Of a stretch of DNA of 64,000 nt, positions 29,620-37,672 are shown piece after piece; the stretch's first letter is position 1; the number at the start of each line of letters is the position of its first letter. Position numbers and translations under genes: made by a program. The DNA is from Polyangium fumosum (GTDB taxonomy: Bacteria; Myxococcota_A; Polyangia; Polyangiales; Polyangiaceae). A model generated the notes under the pieces. That model was given only the letters and a program-made list of their open reading frames with translations. It made no database searches and had not been told where the DNA came from. The stretch spans positions 372,001-436,000 of the forward strand of contig NZ_SSMQ01000001.1 of the NCBI RefSeq assembly GCF_005144585.1, given 5' to 3'.

Positions 29620-31851
29620 TCACTGCGCGAGCTTCATGACGACCGCGTCCTCGCCGCCCGCGTTCGTCGTGAAGGTGCCGTCGCCGAAGAGGACGTTGTT
29701 GCTCCGGTAGCTGCCGCCGACCCACACGTTGGCCGAGCTGTCCGCGGCGATGGTCTCGCCCGACTCGGTCATGCCGCCGCCGAACTTCTTGGTCCAGGCC
29801 GCGGTGCCGGTGGGGTTGTACTTCGCGACGAAGATGTCGTGCTCGCCGTTCGACGAGACGTCGCCCTTGCCGAAATTGGTGGTGGCCCAGAATTGGCCCG
29901 TCACGAGCACGTTGTTGAACGCGTCGACCGCGATGTCCTTGCCCCGCTGCGTGCTGATGCCGCCCATGGTCTTGCTCCACATGTGGAAGCCGGAGGGGCT
30001 GTACTTCGCGATGAACACGTCCTCCGCGCCGCCGCTCGTGACCGTGCCATTGCCGATGTCCATCGAGCCGTTGAACTCGCCGGTCACGAGCACGTTGCCC
30101 GCGCTGTCGATCGTCACGGCGTTCGCGCGCTGGAGCTCCGCGTCGCCCGCGCCGAGCACGAAGAGGGGGTTGCCCATGGTGTCGAGCTTCGCGACGAAGA
30201 TGTCATAACCGCCGGCGCTCGTGAGCGTCTGGCCGCCGCCGAAATCGAGGCTGCTCTGGAACGCGCCGGCGAGCGCGATGTCGCCTGCGGGCGAGACCGC
30301 GAGGTCGTAAATGTATTGCGTCCCCGGCCCGGTGTACGCCTTCGCCCAGAGCGCCGTGCCATTCTTGTCCATCTTCGTGACGAACAATTCGAGCCCACCA
30401 CCCGCGCTCGGGCTGATGACGTGCGCGCCGATCGTGAGGTTGGCCGAGAACGTGCCGGAGACGTAGACGTTGTCCGCCGCGTCGACCGCGACGCTTGGCT
30501 CCTCCTGCGTGTACGCGTTCGCGATGGCCTGGCTCCAGACCTGGTTCCCCGTGGCGGCGGCGAGCTTCGCCACGAAGATATCACGCGAGCCCATGTTGCT
30601 CGTGAGCGCCCCGTCGCCGAAATCGATGCTGCCGAGGAACTCGCCCGTGATGAGCACGTCGCCCGCGCTGTCGATGGCGACGCTGGTCACGTCCTGCCCG
30701 GCCGCATCGCCGTACTTCTTCGCCCACACGACGGTGCCCGCCGAATTGTACTTGATGACGAAGATGTTTTCGTTGCCCGTGCTGGTCAGCGTGCCGATCG
30801 GCGCGGGGAGGGTGATCGCCCCCGAGAACCTGCCGACGACGACGCCATTGCCCTGCGTATCGGTCGCAGAGGCCAGCACGATCTGAGCCTGGTTGTTGCC
30901 GAAGGTCCGCACCCAGCTCGTGTCGCCGGTGCACGCAGGCGCCTGGCCATTGCAATCGTCGTCGCCGGCCGTCGCGCAGTTCTCCGGCGTCGGCACGACC
31001 TCGCCCGTGCACGGCCCGTACCCGGAGCCGTTCGGCGTGCACGTCTCGATGCCCATCTTGCACAGGCCCACGCCCGCCGTGCCATTCGGCCCCGTGTAGC
31101 AGGCCTTCGTCGAGTTCGGCGCGCACGCGCAGTTCGCGCCGTCGTCCACGAACATGTCGCAATCGTCGTCGATGGCATTGCAGGTCTCGGCCTGCGGCAG
31201 GACCTGGCCCACGCACGCGCCGTACGAGAGGCCGTCGGGCGCGCACGTCGCGGTGCCGCCCTTGCAAATGCCGACGTTTTCCGTGCCGTTCGGGCCCGTG
31301 TAGCAGGGCATCGAAGCGCCCGGCGAGCACGCGCAGTTCGCGCCGTCGCCGACCACGCCATTGCAGTCCTCGTCGGTCAGGCCGCACGACTGGGTCCCCG
31401 GGACGACCTCGCCCACGCACGGGCCGTAGCTGAGGCCGTCGGGGTTGCAGGTCTTCACGCCCGCCATGCAGGCGCCGACGCCCATCGTGCCGTCGGGGCC
31501 CGTGTAGCAGGCCTGCGTGCTGCCCGGCGTGCAGCAGCCCTCGTCGACCTCGCCGTCGCAGTTGTTGTCCTTGTTGTCGCCGCAGACCTCGGGCGTGGGG
31601 ACACACGCCATTCCGCCGCCGCCGCCCATGCCGCCGCCGCCCATGCCGCCGCCGCCCTGGCCGCCCACGCCGCCCTCCCCGCCCACGCCGCCGGTGCCGC
31701 CGCCGCCCTGCCCACCGGTGCCGCTCGACGAGCTGCTCGACCCCGTGATGTTCGGAAGCGGCTCGTCGCCGCCGCAGCCCGCGAGTCCCGCGCCGAGGAC
31801 CAGCGCGAGGGACGAAAGTGTGAACGAAGCAAGATGACGCCGATGCAACAT
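29620..31851 (-). CDS. Lipoprotein with MopE-like Cys repeats and beta-propeller repeats
   Basis: The 743-residue protein has lipobox LGAGLAGC, a Ser run and a Gly-rich linker (about 36-80). Then come three Cys-rich units of about 60 residues, each containing patterns like CYTGPNGTxxVG, TCxPDGLSYG and DxDCNG, resembling the putative metal-binding motif of MopE-like proteins. From about residue 300 to the end there are SBBP-type beta-propeller repeats with recurring DIFVAK(Y/L) and DSAGNVLVTGEF segments. The Asp/Asn-rich NNCDGEVDEG motif suggests calcium binding. It is probably a surface or outer-membrane protein. The start is supported by a strong GGAGG site nine bases before the ATG. No enzymatic motif is seen. 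Confidence 0.87.
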   Translation of the reverse strand: MLHRRHLASFTLSSLALVLGAGLAGCGGDEPLPNITGSSSSSSGTGGQGGGGTGGVGGEGGVGGQGGGGMGGGGMGGGGGMACVPTPEVCGDNKDNNCDGEVDEGCCTPGSTQACYTGPDGTMGVGACMAGVKTCNPDGLSYGPCVGEVVPGTQSCGLTDEDCNGVVGDGANCACSPGASMPCYTGPNGTENVGICKGGTATCAPDGLSYGACVGQVLPQAETCNAIDDDCDMFVDDGANCACAPNSTKACYTGPNGTAGVGLCKMGIETCTPNGSGYGPCTGEVVPTPENCATAGDDDCNGQAPACTGDTSWVRTFGNNQAQIVLASATDTQGNGVVVGRFSGAITLPAPIGTLTSTGNENIFVIKYNSAGTVVWAKKYGDAAGQDVTSVAIDSAGDVLITGEFLGSIDFGDGALTSNMGSRDIFVAKLAAATGNQVWSQAIANAYTQEEPSVAVDAADNVYVSGTFSANLTIGAHVISPSAGGGLELFVTKMDKNGTALWAKAYTGPGTQYIYDLAVSPAGDIALAGAFQSSLDFGGGQTLTSAGGYDIFVAKLDTMGNPLFVLGAGDAELQRANAVTIDSAGNVLVTGEFNGSMDIGNGTVTSGGAEDVFIAKYSPSGFHMWSKTMGGISTQRGKDIAVDAFNNVLVTGQFWATTNFGKGDVSSNGEHDIFVAKYNPTGTAAWTKKFGGGMTESGETIAADSSANVWVGGSYRSNNVLFGDGTFTTNAGGEDAVVMKLAQ

Positions 31852-33590: not shown

Positions 33591-34274
33591 ATGGCCACAC
33601 ATCTCCGCGAAGACATGGCGGCCCAGACCGCCGCGGACATCTGCGCCGCGATCACGAGCGCGCTCGACAGCGATCCGATCACGCGACCGCTCGCACCGTT
33701 ATGGGACGCGCTGGCGCAGAAGGGGGACGGGCTCGCCGCGCAGCGCCGCGCGCTGGAGCGCGCGCTCGGGCGGGCGAGGGCGCGGCTGTCCGTGGCCGAC
33801 GCGCGCTGGGACGCGGAGACGGCGAGCTTCGGTCGAGATGTCGTCAACGAATCGGATGGGCGGCGTGATCGTCCGCCCTACACGCGGTTTTTCGTGGGCG
33901 TGACCCCGTCGGACGCGCAGGCATTCGGGGTCGATCGGGAGGTGAAGCAAGGGCGCGCGTGGATCGAGGAGCTCGGGCGCGAGCCGGACGTGGCGCTCGC
34001 GACGAAGTGGACGCCGCGCCTTTCGAACGCGACGGACACGCTGGAGACGAACAGCAAGGAGCGTGAGGCGGCGATGTCCGCGCTCGCGCTGCAAGGGACG
34101 TCGGAGCTGCTTTACATCGGGGAGATCAACGTGGAGATCGATAAGCTGGAGGGCGCGTTGCTCCAGCACTTCCCTGGGCAGCCGAAGCGCGTCGCGTCGT
34201 TCCTCGCGGCGACGAAGCCGCGCCGCAAGCGAAACGACGACGGAGACGAGGGGCCGTCGGGCAGCGAAGGCTGA
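33591..34274 (+). CDS. Hypothetical coiled-coil protein, 227 residues
   Basis: The function is unknown. The protein is predicted mostly helical, with Ala/Arg-rich heptad-like runs near residues 45-75 (QRRALERALGRARARLSVAD) and a basic-acidic low-complexity C-terminus (KPRRKRNDDGDEG). There is no signal peptide. A very strong ribosome site (GGGAGGAG) six bases before the ATG suggests efficient translation. The first 30 residues are amphipathic. It ends next to a tandem array of palindromic motifs and could be transcribed into it. It might be a structural or adaptor protein, but that is speculation. Confidence 0.65.
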   Translation: MATHLREDMAAQTAADICAAITSALDSDPITRPLAPLWDALAQKGDGLAAQRRALERALGRARARLSVADARWDAETASFGRDVVNESDGRRDRPPYTRFFVGVTPSDAQAFGVDREVKQGRAWIEELGREPDVALATKWTPRLSNATDTLETNSKEREAAMSALALQGTSELLYIGEINVEIDKLEGALLQHFPGQPKRVASFLAATKPRRKRNDDGDEGPSGSEG

Positions 34275-34313
34275 CGGACGGCGAGAGGGCGTCGCTCGAA
34301 GGGGGGAGCGAGC

Positions 34314-34558
34314 GACGTGGCGCACGCGAGAGGGGGGATCGACGCGGGGAGGAGGGATCTTGCGTGGCGCACGTGGGGTGCCCGGCGCGGGGGTGAGAGG
34401 GGCGTGCGTGACGCACGGAGGTCCCTCGGGGCGGCGAGTGAGCATCTTGCGTGGCGCGCGGGGGTGGATCCTCACGTCGAGGAGGGGTCGTGCGTGAGGC
34501 ACGAGGGGGTGCGGAGGCGTCGAGGGAGGGCCGTGCGTGTCCCGGGGGACAAGGCACG
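34314..34558. repeat. Periodic array of short palindromes, about 43-bp spacing
   Basis: A 13-bp imperfect palindrome of the form TGCGTGRCGCACG recurs at 34361, 34405, 34448 and 34491, with a degenerate first copy at 34314 (GACGTGGCGCACG) and a split last copy at 34534. Steps are 47, 44, 43, 43 and 43 bases. The roughly 30-base spacers differ but share a purine-rich block just before each palindrome (for example GGAGGAGGGATCT, GAGGAGGGGTCG). A 43-base step is about four helical turns, so the copies face the same side of the DNA. The period is not a multiple of three, so it is not a protein repeat. The array fills the gap between convergent genes. Possible roles are protein binding, RNA hairpins or a terminator series; none is established. 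Confidence 0.8.
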
Positions 34559-34559
34559 G
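34531..34559. terminator. Nested stem-loop at the end of the palindrome array
   Basis: CCGTGC pairs with GCACGG, and inside it TGTCC pairs with GGACA around a CGGG loop; a G and an AG form small bulges. It lies 20 bases beyond the 3' end of the minus-strand partner gene and could end that transcript, or the plus-strand transcript after passing through the array. It appears to be the last array copy with an inserted inner palindrome. Confidence 0.5.
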
Positions 34560-34578
34560 GTTCGGGGTGGTGTCAAGC

Positions 34579-36201
34579 TCACGAAGTGGGCGGGGATTTG
34601 CCGAGTTCCTGGTCGCGTTGCGCTTCGACCTCGGCGGCTTCGAGGTGGCGACCCTGGGAGCGGAGGGCTTTGGCGAGTTCGGTCCAGAGGTCTTTGCGAA
34701 CCTGGGGGTCGAGCTCGATAACCTCGGTGCCTCGCACGAAGGCGAGCAGGGCTTCGCGGGACGTGAGGCCGAGGAATTGAGATTCGAGCTTTCCCTCGAT
34801 GGGGAGCCCGAGGACTCTGCGAAGGAAGACTTCGGCATCCGCGGCGCGGCCGGTCTGGTTGAGCATTTGGGCGAACCCGCGAACGCCGTCGAGCCATCGA
34901 AGTTGTTGGACCTGCTTCATCACCCAGCTCGCGCCTTCCATCGCGTCATGGTTGGCCGAGTGCTTCTTCAGCGTCAGCGCCTGCCCCGCCCACGCCTGCG
35001 CGATGTCCAAGTGTGCATGCTCGTATGCGAGCTTTGAGAGTTCGCTCCAGCGCTCCGCTGTCCGTTGGCCTCGGCCGAGGAGAAATTCGATCCGGGGTGC
35101 GTGACCTTGGAGCAGAGGAGATTCGCCGTCGTCATCCAATTCAAGCCATCTCTCGGCCTCTCGGGTGGGGCGGCGCGACCATCGCCATAGGCCGATACGT
35201 TTGCCGAGGTAGCGCTGGACGGGCGGAGGAATGAAAAGACCCTGAATCGGATTACGCGCGAGGCCCGCGCTCAGAATTTTCTCACAAAGCCCCGCACCCG
35301 GATCCGCAGAGCGTAACATGGATGCGAGGAGTCCCTCCTCGGGATAGTCCCTCTGTAGGAGCTCGATGAGGTATCGGATGACCATCCCCTCCAGCCCGGA
35401 GACCGCTGCGAGCCTTCCCGGGTGCCTGGCGCCCGCGTCTGCGAGGCATTCCATCGCGCTTTGGAGATGAATCCAAACATCATCGGAGATGTTCCAGTAG
35501 CGATCTTCATAGAAGTGCGGGACGAGCAGGATCGCCCTGGTCTTGCGCCGTGCTTGCGCGAGCGCCCAACGGAACCGCTCGACTTGCGAGGAACTCACGG
35601 TGTCGCAAGCGACCCAAGCCCGGCCCGCCGTCGTGATGTCGTACACGATCCTGGCATAATGATTATTGGCATTGATCCACCGGATCGCTCGTCCCGGCAA
35701 AGCCTCTCGAAAGGTCCGCTCGACCCGCTCGATCCGCGCCTGCCGATCGCTCGTGTACTCATCCCCATAAACAAACAAAATCCCCGGCGCCCGACACCGA
35801 AGCGCCTGCCGGATCCCGAACACGGCATGCTCCGCCACGCCCGGCGGACACTCGTGCCGCTGCGCGATCCAATCGTAAAAATCCGGCGCCTCCCGGGCGA
35901 GCACCTCCGTCACCTCGCGCCGGCAGAAGAGCACGACCTTCAGCAATTTTCGCGCGAACACCGGCCGGTTGATGTTGAGCCACCCCGCGTCCTCCCCCTC
36001 GAGGACAAGCACCACGACCGAGCCGTCGGGCAGATCGACGAGCCCGCTCGGCTTCGCCAGCACTTCGAGATCGGGATGATCCGCGAGCAGCGCGCGCACG
36101 AGCCCGCCGAGCCGCTCAAGGACCGCGTCGTCCACCAGGATGAGGACGCCTCGCGGGCTCAGCCGAAGGCCCTGGCGGATCTCTGCGATCCAGTCGCTCA
36201 C
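34579..36201 (-). CDS. Unrecognised protein coupled to a P-loop NTPase gene
   Basis: No known family was recognised in this 540-residue product. The N-terminal part (about 1-110) alternates strands and helices (GVLILVDDAVLERLGG, SVVVLVLEG, LKVVLFCRREVTEVLA), like a Rossmann-type or TIR-like alpha/beta domain. The middle part includes GILFVYGDEYTSDRQ and AILLVPHFYEDRYW, again strand-rich. The C-terminal 150 residues are helical and TPR-like (AYEHAHLDIAQAWAGQALTL). There is no signal peptide. I start at the GTG at 36201 because it overlaps the stop of the NTPase gene by four bases (GTGA); an ATG 45 bases upstream would overlap more. Cotranslation points to a shared complex, perhaps an effector whose activity the NTPase controls. 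Confidence 0.8.
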   Translation of the reverse strand: MSDWIAEIRQGLRLSPRGVLILVDDAVLERLGGLVRALLADHPDLEVLAKPSGLVDLPDGSVVVLVLEGEDAGWLNINRPVFARKLLKVVLFCRREVTEVLAREAPDFYDWIAQRHECPPGVAEHAVFGIRQALRCRAPGILFVYGDEYTSDRQARIERVERTFREALPGRAIRWINANNHYARIVYDITTAGRAWVACDTVSSSQVERFRWALAQARRKTRAILLVPHFYEDRYWNISDDVWIHLQSAMECLADAGARHPGRLAAVSGLEGMVIRYLIELLQRDYPEEGLLASMLRSADPGAGLCEKILSAGLARNPIQGLFIPPPVQRYLGKRIGLWRWSRRPTREAERWLELDDDGESPLLQGHAPRIEFLLGRGQRTAERWSELSKLAYEHAHLDIAQAWAGQALTLKKHSANHDAMEGASWVMKQVQQLRWLDGVRGFAQMLNQTGRAADAEVFLRRVLGLPIEGKLESQFLGLTSREALLAFVRGTEVIELDPQVRKDLWTELAKALRSQGRHLEAAEVEAQRDQELGKSPPTS

Positions 36202-37529
36202 AATTTGATCATGTGGCGGAGGAGGAGCGGATGCGGGAAATACCACTCCGAGTCGTTCGGGTACGGCAAGAGCGTCCCGTAGCTGAGGAGCTCCTGCGCC
36301 AGCGGGCCCTGGGGGAGCCGATGATCCGGGTCCCGCGCGATCTCCTCCAGGGTCTGGATGTGGCCCTTGTGCAGCCCCGTCTCCCGCTTGCGCCGGAACT
36401 CGTCGAGCACACGCTTCACGAGGTCGTCCGTCGCTTGCGGGAGGTCATTCAGCGAGGCGAGCCCGGCGATGCGGAAGATGAATGCGACGAACTCCCGCGC
36501 CCGCCCGCCCGAATAGTAAGCGAGCTCGTCGATCTGCTCCGCCGTGAAGAGCGCGGGCCCGCCCGGCAAGTCGGACACGCGCCTCGCATAAAGTTCGCGG
36601 AAGAACTCGATGCCGGGCCCCCTTTGCTTGGGCTTGGACTTCAGGAGGACCGGCTCGTTGACGAGCGAGGGGACGTCGTGAAACCCCCGGATCGACGCCG
36701 TCGCCGGGTGGTGCCGCAGCGCGAACGGCCCGCAGATCACGAGGGGGCATGCGAGCTGGGAGATGAGCACCGAATCGATGAACAGCGCCTTCGCGCGGTC
36801 GAAGTCGCGGATCCGATCGAGCCCGTCGATGATAAAGAGAATGCGTGACCCCCGCTGCTGTACCAGGCCGATCAGCGTGTTGACGCAATCGAGCAGGGCC
36901 TGGACATCGGACTCCTGGTCGGCGAGCGCTTCCCGCGTCTTGCCAAAAGGCGCCGTCCATTTCACGGCCTCGGCGCCAGCCTTGAGGAGCTGGAGCCCCG
37001 CGCCCACGGCCCCGGGCGCCCCCGTGGCGGCCGAGGAGGCCAGCACGACCATCGATTTCGCGAGGGAGCCGATGTCGATCTGTGGCGGCGTATCCGGGTT
37101 CGTCCGCTTCGCGAGCGTGGCCCAGCGGTTCGCCAGGTCCTCGCGGTGCTTCTTGGGGAGCTCGAAGTCGAGCCGCTCCTCGGCCGCGCGAAGGAGCGCG
37201 ACGCCCATGAGGAAACAAACCTCCCACGGGCTCACGCGTTCGATCGCCTGCGCGTCGTGCACGACGTCGGCGCAATGGCGCTCGAGGTCGACGAAGACCA
37301 CGAACTCCTTGCCCGACCGCTCCTCCGCGATGCGCTGGAGCTCCGTGGTCTTGCCCGTCCCGATCGTGCCTGTCACGAGCAGCCGCGGGACGCCGCGGGC
37401 GATCTCCAGCCACTCGCAGACCATCCGCGCAGGGCTCCGGCTCCGCGGCGCGCGCCACGCGGGGTTTCGTGGCGAAAGCTCCGGATCGAAACGATCGATC
37501 ACCGCGAGCCAGGTTTCACGTCGAGACAT
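36198..37529 (-). CDS. P-loop (AAA/STAND-like) NTPase
   Basis: A 443-residue ATPase with Walker A VTGTIGTGKTTEL (residues 52-64) and Walker B ILFIIDGLDRI (about 228-238). The conserved Leu-Asp after the hydrophobic strand and the HHPATASIRGF downstream region are compatible with an AAA/STAND ATPase. A hydrophobic, Gly/Ala-rich segment near 150-185 (VVLASSAATGAPGAVGAGLQLL) could insert into membranes or form a switch helix. The helical C-terminal third resembles a winged-helix or arm region. The start is the ATG of MSRRETWL. It overlaps the downstream partner gene by four bases. Family-based guess: it assembles or changes state upon a signal and regulates its partner, as in STAND-type conflict systems. 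Confidence 0.88.
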   Translation of the reverse strand: MSRRETWLAVIDRFDPELSPRNPAWRAPRSRSPARMVCEWLEIARGVPRLLVTGTIGTGKTTELQRIAEERSGKEFVVFVDLERHCADVVHDAQAIERVSPWEVCFLMGVALLRAAEERLDFELPKKHREDLANRWATLAKRTNPDTPPQIDIGSLAKSMVVLASSAATGAPGAVGAGLQLLKAGAEAVKWTAPFGKTREALADQESDVQALLDCVNTLIGLVQQRGSRILFIIDGLDRIRDFDRAKALFIDSVLISQLACPLVICGPFALRHHPATASIRGFHDVPSLVNEPVLLKSKPKQRGPGIEFFRELYARRVSDLPGGPALFTAEQIDELAYYSGGRAREFVAFIFRIAGLASLNDLPQATDDLVKRVLDEFRRKRETGLHKGHIQTLEEIARDPDHRLPQGPLAQELLSYGTLLPYPNDSEWYFPHPLLLRHMIKL

Positions 37530-37672
37530 GCGTCGAGAGATCCTCCGACGCGGACTTCTGCACGAAGGCCCCGAGGGCGTCAAGCAAGCGACAGAGCACG
37601 CTCGGCCTTCGCATCCGCCCGCAACTCGTGCCATGCTCGCGCCGCTCCGTCCCTGGCGCCCCCACGTCCCGA

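Follow-up and report, generated by a model that had tools for sequence, protein, structure and literature searches.

What keeps a series of short palindromes about 43 bp apart between two convergent genes of Polyangium fumosum, and does this spacing belong to one locus or to the genus? The DNA analyzed here (the window) is a stretch of 64,000 nucleotides in which the original prediction had recognized a phased array of 13-bp palindromes, offering as readings a cooperative protein-binding array, a series of RNA hairpins or a partition-type site tied to neighboring NTPase genes. The observation itself is confirmed. The array (window 34314-34558) is noncoding, its steps are 47, 44, 43, 43 and 43 bp, and it sits in a 304-bp gap between the ends of the two genes. 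The features of the locus are the following.

33591..34274, plus strand: upstream gene, 227 aa, no Pfam family; its homologue (63% identical in the Polyangium genome G004) precedes an A-type array, called locus 1 below
34290..34317, no strand: first dyad after the stop codon, stem CGTCGCTCG / CGAGCGACG, read from the sequence; its counterpart in ten other A-type arrays covaries
34314..34558, no strand: whole phased array, from the sequence, TRF, orthologue alignment and the spacing test
34318..34360, no strand: unit 0, degenerate, TGGCGCACG..., in the 43-bp register shared with the orthologues
34361..34404, no strand: unit 1, 44 bp, TGCGTGGCGCACG; the version in G001 is one base shorter
34405..34447, no strand: unit 2, 43 bp, TGCGTGACGCACG, from alignment and the spacing test
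34448..34490, no strand: unit 3, 43 bp, TGCGTGGCGCGCG, from alignment and the spacing test
34491..34533, no strand: unit 4, 43 bp, TGCGTGAGGCACG, from alignment and the spacing test
34534..34560, no strand: terminal unit, TGCGTG running into a TGTCCC/GGGACA stem, then GGCACG; in register, one base shorter in G001
34579..36246, minus strand: convergent gene, 555 aa, no Pfam family, its end about 20 bp from the array
36198..37634, minus strand: AAA/NACHT-type NTPase gene, the next minus-strand gene, not counted in the array system

The copies start at 34314 (degenerate), 34361, 34405, 34448, 34491 and 34534. Two of them (34361, 34405) are exact TGCGTGRCGCACG, two (34448, 34491) have one mismatch, and that at 34534 is a variant continuing into the hairpin. 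TRF independently gives a period of 43 (34339-34466, score 124). The initial step of 47 is a question of register: when the orthologous arrays of G001 and G005 are aligned, their first copy, at window 34318, stands 43 bp before the next. The plus strand is purine-rich (0.65).

Exact copies of the 13-mer TGCGTGRCGCACG occupy 7 sites in the 12.98-Mb genome, two of which are within the array; a genome scan allowing one mismatch was uninformative (75 forward and 101 reverse matches vs 62 and 60 for the control). When the motif was relaxed to TGCGYGRSGCRCG and any start-to-start distance of 28-58 bp (31 spacings) was allowed, 18 pairs were found in the six Polyangium genomes (in three of them), 16 at 43 and 2 at 44 bp, with none in the reversed-pattern control. 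Since the exact motif is scarce and the relaxed pairs occur at 43 or 44 bp only, the array is not a product of chance, and the random spread of the motif that was proposed as a refutation is not what is seen. A similar result was obtained with the D-type palindrome TTGCRNNNNYGCAA, for which 14-44 bases between copies (31 spacings) were allowed: 31 of 34 pairs in the six genomes (four have any) are at 43 and 3 at 42, the other 29 spacings are empty, and the control gave 0. A B-type motif, searched at 41-45 only, gave 41 pairs, 38 with a distance of 43 and 3 with 44 (control 1). Ten D-type arrays with 79 units, chained within 42-44, have steps of 43 (64 times) and 42 (5 times), and their spacers are 37% alike within one array vs 31% when shuffled. 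A scan of 183 genomes of the order gave 16 TTGCRNNNNYGCAA pairs outside Polyangium vs 12 in the reversed control, with steps of 39 (four), 40 (two), 42 (four, one G036 array), 31 (two) and 32, 43, 45 and 51 (one each). These mixed, near-control spacings indicate that the 43-bp rule is not inherent to the motif. In G036, of another genus, an TTGCACTGGTGCAA array at 42 bp was noted (G036:C1:9186667-9186848); by eye, another palindrome stands at its half-period.

The region of the window array is found at the same locus in G005 (87%) and G001 (85%), that is, in two of the five other genomes of the genus that were searched, and has no match at E 0.001 in G002, G003 and G004. The spacing is retained in the relatives that have the array, so the other proposed refutation, loss of the spacing in relatives, also failed. 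Three further matches are arrays with other units at other loci, each with 43 as its best lag. A sequence-only two-unit model gave matches in all six Polyangium genomes, and 20 regions were picked from these for lag analysis; lag 43 or its double was best or joint-best in 17. In L087, the G005 orthologue, lag 43 is second by 0.01; the L090 array has alternating steps of 43 and 44 (double 87), and in L092 the array, at 43-44, is outscored by another repeat. Steps of 43 and 44 alternate in G000:C145 (G000 is the window's own genome), which implies that one base of slack is allowed. Arrays of other unit sequences with the 43-bp period are thus present in six of the six genomes. Close to one of the 43-bp arrays of G004 there is a tandem repeat with lag 52 (L084:5647 onward, identity 0.95).

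How common is this period among intergenic repeats? A lag scan counted intergenic arrays with a fundamental period of at least 25 bp in samples of G004 (40 evenly spread 20-kb stretches, 800 kb), G000 (664 kb, from the window and 30 stretches of selected contigs), G036 and G048 (400 kb each) and G024 (200 kb). In both Polyangium samples 43 bp is the commonest period, found exactly in five of eight arrays of G004 and in five of seven of G000 with the window included (four of six without it). The five of G000 include L306 (identity 0.56), known from the lag scan alone. Together this makes 10 of 15 arrays (9 of 14 without the window; the binomial test used 10/15). Extrapolation from five arrays in 800 kb suggests about 80 arrays in the 13.2 Mb of G004, and the samples likewise suggest tens of arrays per Polyangium genome. 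Five arrays of G000 have a 21-bp period and, being below the 25-bp cut, were not counted. One of these, L321 (8004 onward), is intergenic and palindromic by eye; its period, like that of the other four, is about half of 43, and it may be on the same theme. Autocorrelation of all intergenic DNA rises mildly at lag 43 (z 2.4) and falls to z 0.1 without the strong arrays; the signal therefore resides in discrete arrays. Lags divisible by three score above lag 43 in this analysis, which we think is due to the crude gene mask.

Within the limits of these samples, other Polyangiales likewise carry arrays with such a ruler, at 43 bp in G036 and mostly at 41 bp in G048: 43 bp was found in three of six arrays of G036 and in one of five of G048, where three of five are at 41 bp. 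The G024 sample had 0 of 9 at 43 bp, and among the arrays in the DNA of other organisms that had not been picked by the 41-45-bp pattern this period is again found in 0 of 9. G048 belongs to another family of the order; its 41-bp arrays, at its commonest sampled period, have dyad-symmetric units (L161:17990-18249, L338:8767-9192, L339:5173-5405). A pattern scan of named genomes, limited to 41-45 bp, returned 102 stretches, mostly chance matches by our reading. Short intergenic 43-bp arrays were seen in unrelated phyla, namely in Knoellia remsis (L277), Sphaerisporangium corydalis (L255), a Caldilineaceae MAG (L254) and Streptomyces sp. (L290); because the search pattern allowed 41-45 bp only, these finds do not show that 43 bp is preferred in those organisms.

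If the distance between units matters, is it protected in evolution? Arrays were compared at two loci, one behind the homologue of the window's plus-strand gene (locus 1, all six species, in each of which the last codons of the homologue align upstream of the array) and one behind a 465-aa gene that is 88% identical between G000 and G003 (locus 2, four species). Gapless blocks extend over 260 nt at locus 1 in six species and 246 nt at locus 2 in four. The ten orthologous arrays, in 21 pairs, have 1 indel per 1083 substitutions, vs 23 per 432 in flanking intergenic DNA and 323 per 14079 in genes (Fisher p 8e-12 and 2e-9, respectively, for pairs that share branches and are non-independent). The sole indel counted is an 80-nt gap in one pair, and the multiple alignment does not put this gap inside the array. 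The window locus, which is outside this count, has a gapless block of 153 nt and two single-base indels, G001 being shorter in unit 1 and in the terminal unit; save for these two, the fixed spacing is maintained against indels. Variable columns have no 3-base periodicity at the three loci (by phase 49/53/46, 35/31/31 and 11/10/9), so the conservation of length is not a frame constraint, and a protein-coding tandem repeat was rejected on the same ground. Stops occur in most plus-strand frames of the arrays (not in all species), and several minus-strand frames are open in all species. At locus 1 (L081, L082, L088 and relatives) a gene for a small cysteine-rich putative lipoprotein was noted by eye downstream of the array.

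Most arrays are also symmetric. In a profile test 34 of 41 arrays resemble their own reverse complement above column shuffles (p<=0.05), and by the consensus test 20 of 41 are symmetric, where the comparison sets gave 14 of 200 for random intergenic 43-mers, 9 of 200 for coding 43-mers and 8 of 78 for tandem units of other kinds. The array limits used in both tests were chosen manually, and the 41 arrays include several that are orthologous or paralogous to one another. The window array is one of those with weak symmetry (p 0.11), and its orthologues reach 0.03 (G005) and 0.002 (G001); profile symmetry is likewise not significant in L078, L092, L102, L132, L143 and L197. Symmetry extends to the three 41-bp arrays of G048. 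When consensus units were scored for local inverted repeats the signal was weak (11 of 41 at p<=0.05), and this score was superseded by the whole-unit test. In 64 A-type units the two best dyad centers are at 27.5 and 6.0, which is 21.5 apart, and symmetry near both is on average above shuffles (z 1.8 and 1.3). A whole unit that is symmetric about one point must also be symmetric half a period away; one dyad follows from the other, and the two should not be counted separately.

A dyad can be read as a DNA site or paired in RNA, and the pattern of broken dyads bears on this choice. The outer pair 2/13 of the D-type palindrome has 21 one-sided departures (11 T-G, 9 C-A, 1 G-A) and zero compensated ones, and pair 5/10 is without covariation (32 vs 35.4 permuted). 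The inner pairs exceed permutation (6/9, 50 vs 40.8; 7/8, which are adjacent bases, 56 vs 34.8). Over the symmetric pairs of arrays with at least four units, the 735 departing cells comprise 51 double changes that keep pairing, 126 G-T, 114 A-C and 444 other. Pairing in A-type units is slightly above permutation (636 vs 611 and 620 vs 597 of 1280 cells), and G-T is not. In ten A-type arrays a 19-pair dyad starts about 10 nt (locus 1) or about 20 nt (locus 2) past the stop codon; 88.9% of its cells are paired, 11 are double-change cells vs 5.0 when shuffled, and A-C mismatches are below expectation (1 vs 3.2). Both strands of the arrays give stable folds (mean z -3.9 and -3.4; 42 of 49 arrays, 30 shuffles each), a result that does not discriminate because any dyad-symmetric repeat folds well. 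As a whole this pattern resembles half-sites bound by a dimer more than bases paired in RNA, and the lack of a wobble bias in the broken dyads favors a dimeric DNA-binding protein over RNA hairpins.

The arrays are extragenic, between called genes. The orientation of the flanking genes was assessed for 49 arrays and is co-directional in 27, convergent in 16, divergent in 4 and undecidable in 2. Gaps of 250-1500 bp in G004 and G000, taken as background, gave 76 co-directional, 30 convergent and 51 divergent pairs. Arrays thus shun divergent gene pairs (4 of 47 vs 51 of 157, Fisher p 0.0007), where the 47 scored arrays include orthologues and arrays of G036 and G048 and the background is from G004 and G000 only. 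Genes were called with a simple composition-based caller; a few calls overlap arrays and some neighbors are mis-called, so that the window orthologues, which are convergent, were scored as co-directional (G005) and divergent (G001).

Among the D arrays, one kind forms a dispersed element about 350 bp long with about eight units. Five copies, from four species (two are in G004), give a gapless alignment at 72-80% identity over eight units, with flanks at 22-33%, and units at the same position are more alike than shifted units. Copy ends fall within about half a unit and are loosely inverted by eye; a sixth copy has only two or three units in common.

Which explanations can account for these observations? 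RNA hairpin arrays of 3' untranslated regions, whose units would fold in the transcript and block read-through or shield the 3' end, are an unlikely account. Folding on both strands, the position behind genes, and the covarying 19-pair dyad past the stop codon of ten A-type arrays with its scarce A-C mismatches all agree with it. It is opposed by the broken pairs, which lack a G-T excess over the tested arrays, and by the one-sided departures of D pair 2/13. Indels, which RNA loops should tolerate, are nearly absent at two loci, and in the window neither a match in an Rfam scan nor, at 33900-35000, an intrinsic terminator was found. Equally improbable is that the arrays are non-autonomous mobile elements of BIME or MITE type, in which an enzyme copying palindromic units, rather than a host function, would set the 43-bp ruler. 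The five gapless copies of the dispersed D element amid unrelated flanks are what such mobility would produce, and BIMEs, as far as described in PMC2817692, are likewise extragenic, palindromic and regularly spaced. On the other hand, arrays stay in place without gaps at locus 1 in six species and at locus 2 in four, and a transposase of RAYT type (PF01797) was found in only three of the six Polyangium genomes (the window's own included), whereas arrays are in all six. The same element at non-homologous loci with sharp ends, as in MITEs, was found for one D kind only. Palindromic units in alternating orientation are a BIME feature matched here by the whole-unit dyad symmetry of 34 of the 41 arrays, the window array not among them; most units here read the same on both strands. 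According to the same source, BIMEs bind IHF and gyrase, REPs aid Rho-dependent termination, and in Stenotrophomonas the length of the inter-REP segment varies substantially (PMC2817692). The 43-bp arrays differ in having no single common REP sequence of high copy number, the exact window motif being so rare and units differing among arrays, and in keeping one period across different sequences. BrickBuilt of Porphyromonas gingivalis, a minisatellite in a MITE with 23-nt repeats whose number varies between strains, is similar as a dispersed intergenic element with short internal tandem repeats and foldable units (PMC4596501); it is a single family, while here many unit sequences share 43 bp and the unit number is stable at two loci.

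Functionless tandem duplication of random intergenic DNA, as in ordinary minisatellites, is improbable to a much greater degree. Several arrays do have near-identical units, as from recent slippage, but slippage should favor no period, yet 43 bp recurs in two thirds of the arrays of the two Polyangium samples, and neither rare indels nor dyad symmetry would be expected. CRISPR arrays have conserved repeats of about 23 bp or more and unique spacers. The conserved part here is 13-16 bp, as the original prediction held in calling it too short, and the dispersed D copies at different loci have conserved spacers; CRISPR finds no support on either ground. Iterons and phased operator arrays are direct repeats of a protein site at whole helical turns, found at single loci with one protein; in Polyangium one spacing is common to many arrays per genome whose dyads differ. 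We regard it as very improbable that the arrays serve for partition or anchoring in connection with the NTPase genes, or that they encode guide RNAs as CRISPR and TIGR do, although short palindromes at regular spacing recall both. The partition reading found no support, as arrays adjoin unrelated genes (an epimerase, a fatty acid hydroxylase, proteins without a Pfam family) and there are tens per genome by extrapolation. TIGR arrays share short repeats twice per unit with variable DNA between, and encode 36-nt RNAs and require an adjacent Nop-domain Tas protein (PMC12045711). The Nop domain (PF01798) was not found in the six Polyangium genomes searched, with a positive control in 4 archaea, and TIGR-Tas is not supported; spacers that are conserved between D copies, not unique, also speak against any guide-RNA array. 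The tandem repeats of Borgs are intergenic too, with many unit sequences per genome, and differ in being perfect, recently formed copies, a common period not being named in the part of the source at hand (PMC9879509). No report of 43-bp arrays in myxobacteria was found in the open-licence PMC literature, which is one part of what is in print.

The cooperative protein-binding array that was originally suggested is the best-supported reading: the period is kept, indels are rare, most arrays are symmetric, and the outer half-sites in D arrays vary independently. The window array would then be one member of a class of noncoding, phase-locked arrays across Polyangium genomes, best explained by a putative protein lattice, to which we assign a probability of about 0.45. 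Sites would recur every 43 bp, about four helical turns, and as most arrays are dyad-symmetric as a whole, dyads would stand at each half-period of 21.5 bp, about two turns. A putative dimeric DNA-binding protein would most likely occupy these dyads along one face of the helix and contact its neighbors. Selection would then see the distance between sites, such that an indel breaks the complex and base changes are tolerated. The location of arrays behind genes and away from divergent promoters suggests that the complex probably has its effect where transcription units end, and there it could be an insulator, a transcription roadblock, a supercoil sink or a nucleoid anchor. Confidence is much higher for the array class, with its period, conserved phase and symmetry, than for any function. 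We observe a period, its retention in relatives, the scarcity of indels at two loci, the symmetry of most arrays, their placement and, in one kind, the pattern of the outer half-sites; we infer a protein, its cooperativity and its cellular role.

Several observations do not sit well with a protein lattice. The sequence of the dyad varies between arrays, which would call for several related proteins or one of loose specificity. The window locus has its two single-base indels and weak symmetry, six further arrays are not significantly symmetric, and steps of 43 and 44 can alternate. Compensatory changes in the first A-type dyad and in D pairs 6/9 and 7/8 fit RNA pairing equally, and the 25-bp cut omits the five 21-bp arrays of G000.

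With added reserve, we propose that the Polyangium arrays share a geometric ruler and not a sequence, that some of them travel whole, and that they may form a new class of chromosomal element, the putative footprint of a lattice at transcription-unit ends. Newness is claimed for the class of repeats and not for the mechanism. Should the ruler be functional, it would point to an undescribed DNA-organizing complex in one of the largest bacterial genomes, one that is detectable by its geometry and readily overlooked by searches for sequence similarity; should a transposase have amplified the arrays, they revert to a BIME-like variant. Lag autocorrelation of intergenic DNA is a simple route to other elements that are kept by spacing and free in sequence.

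Two other repeats were noted. In G024 a CRISPR-like array (L138:2048-5062) has a common repeat of about 36 bp and a period of 71-78 bp. In the window, a 204-bp imperfect tandem repeat (30991-31513) lies inside a minus-strand ORF (29620-31851), the translation of which has a glycine-rich region and a repeated cysteine-containing region.
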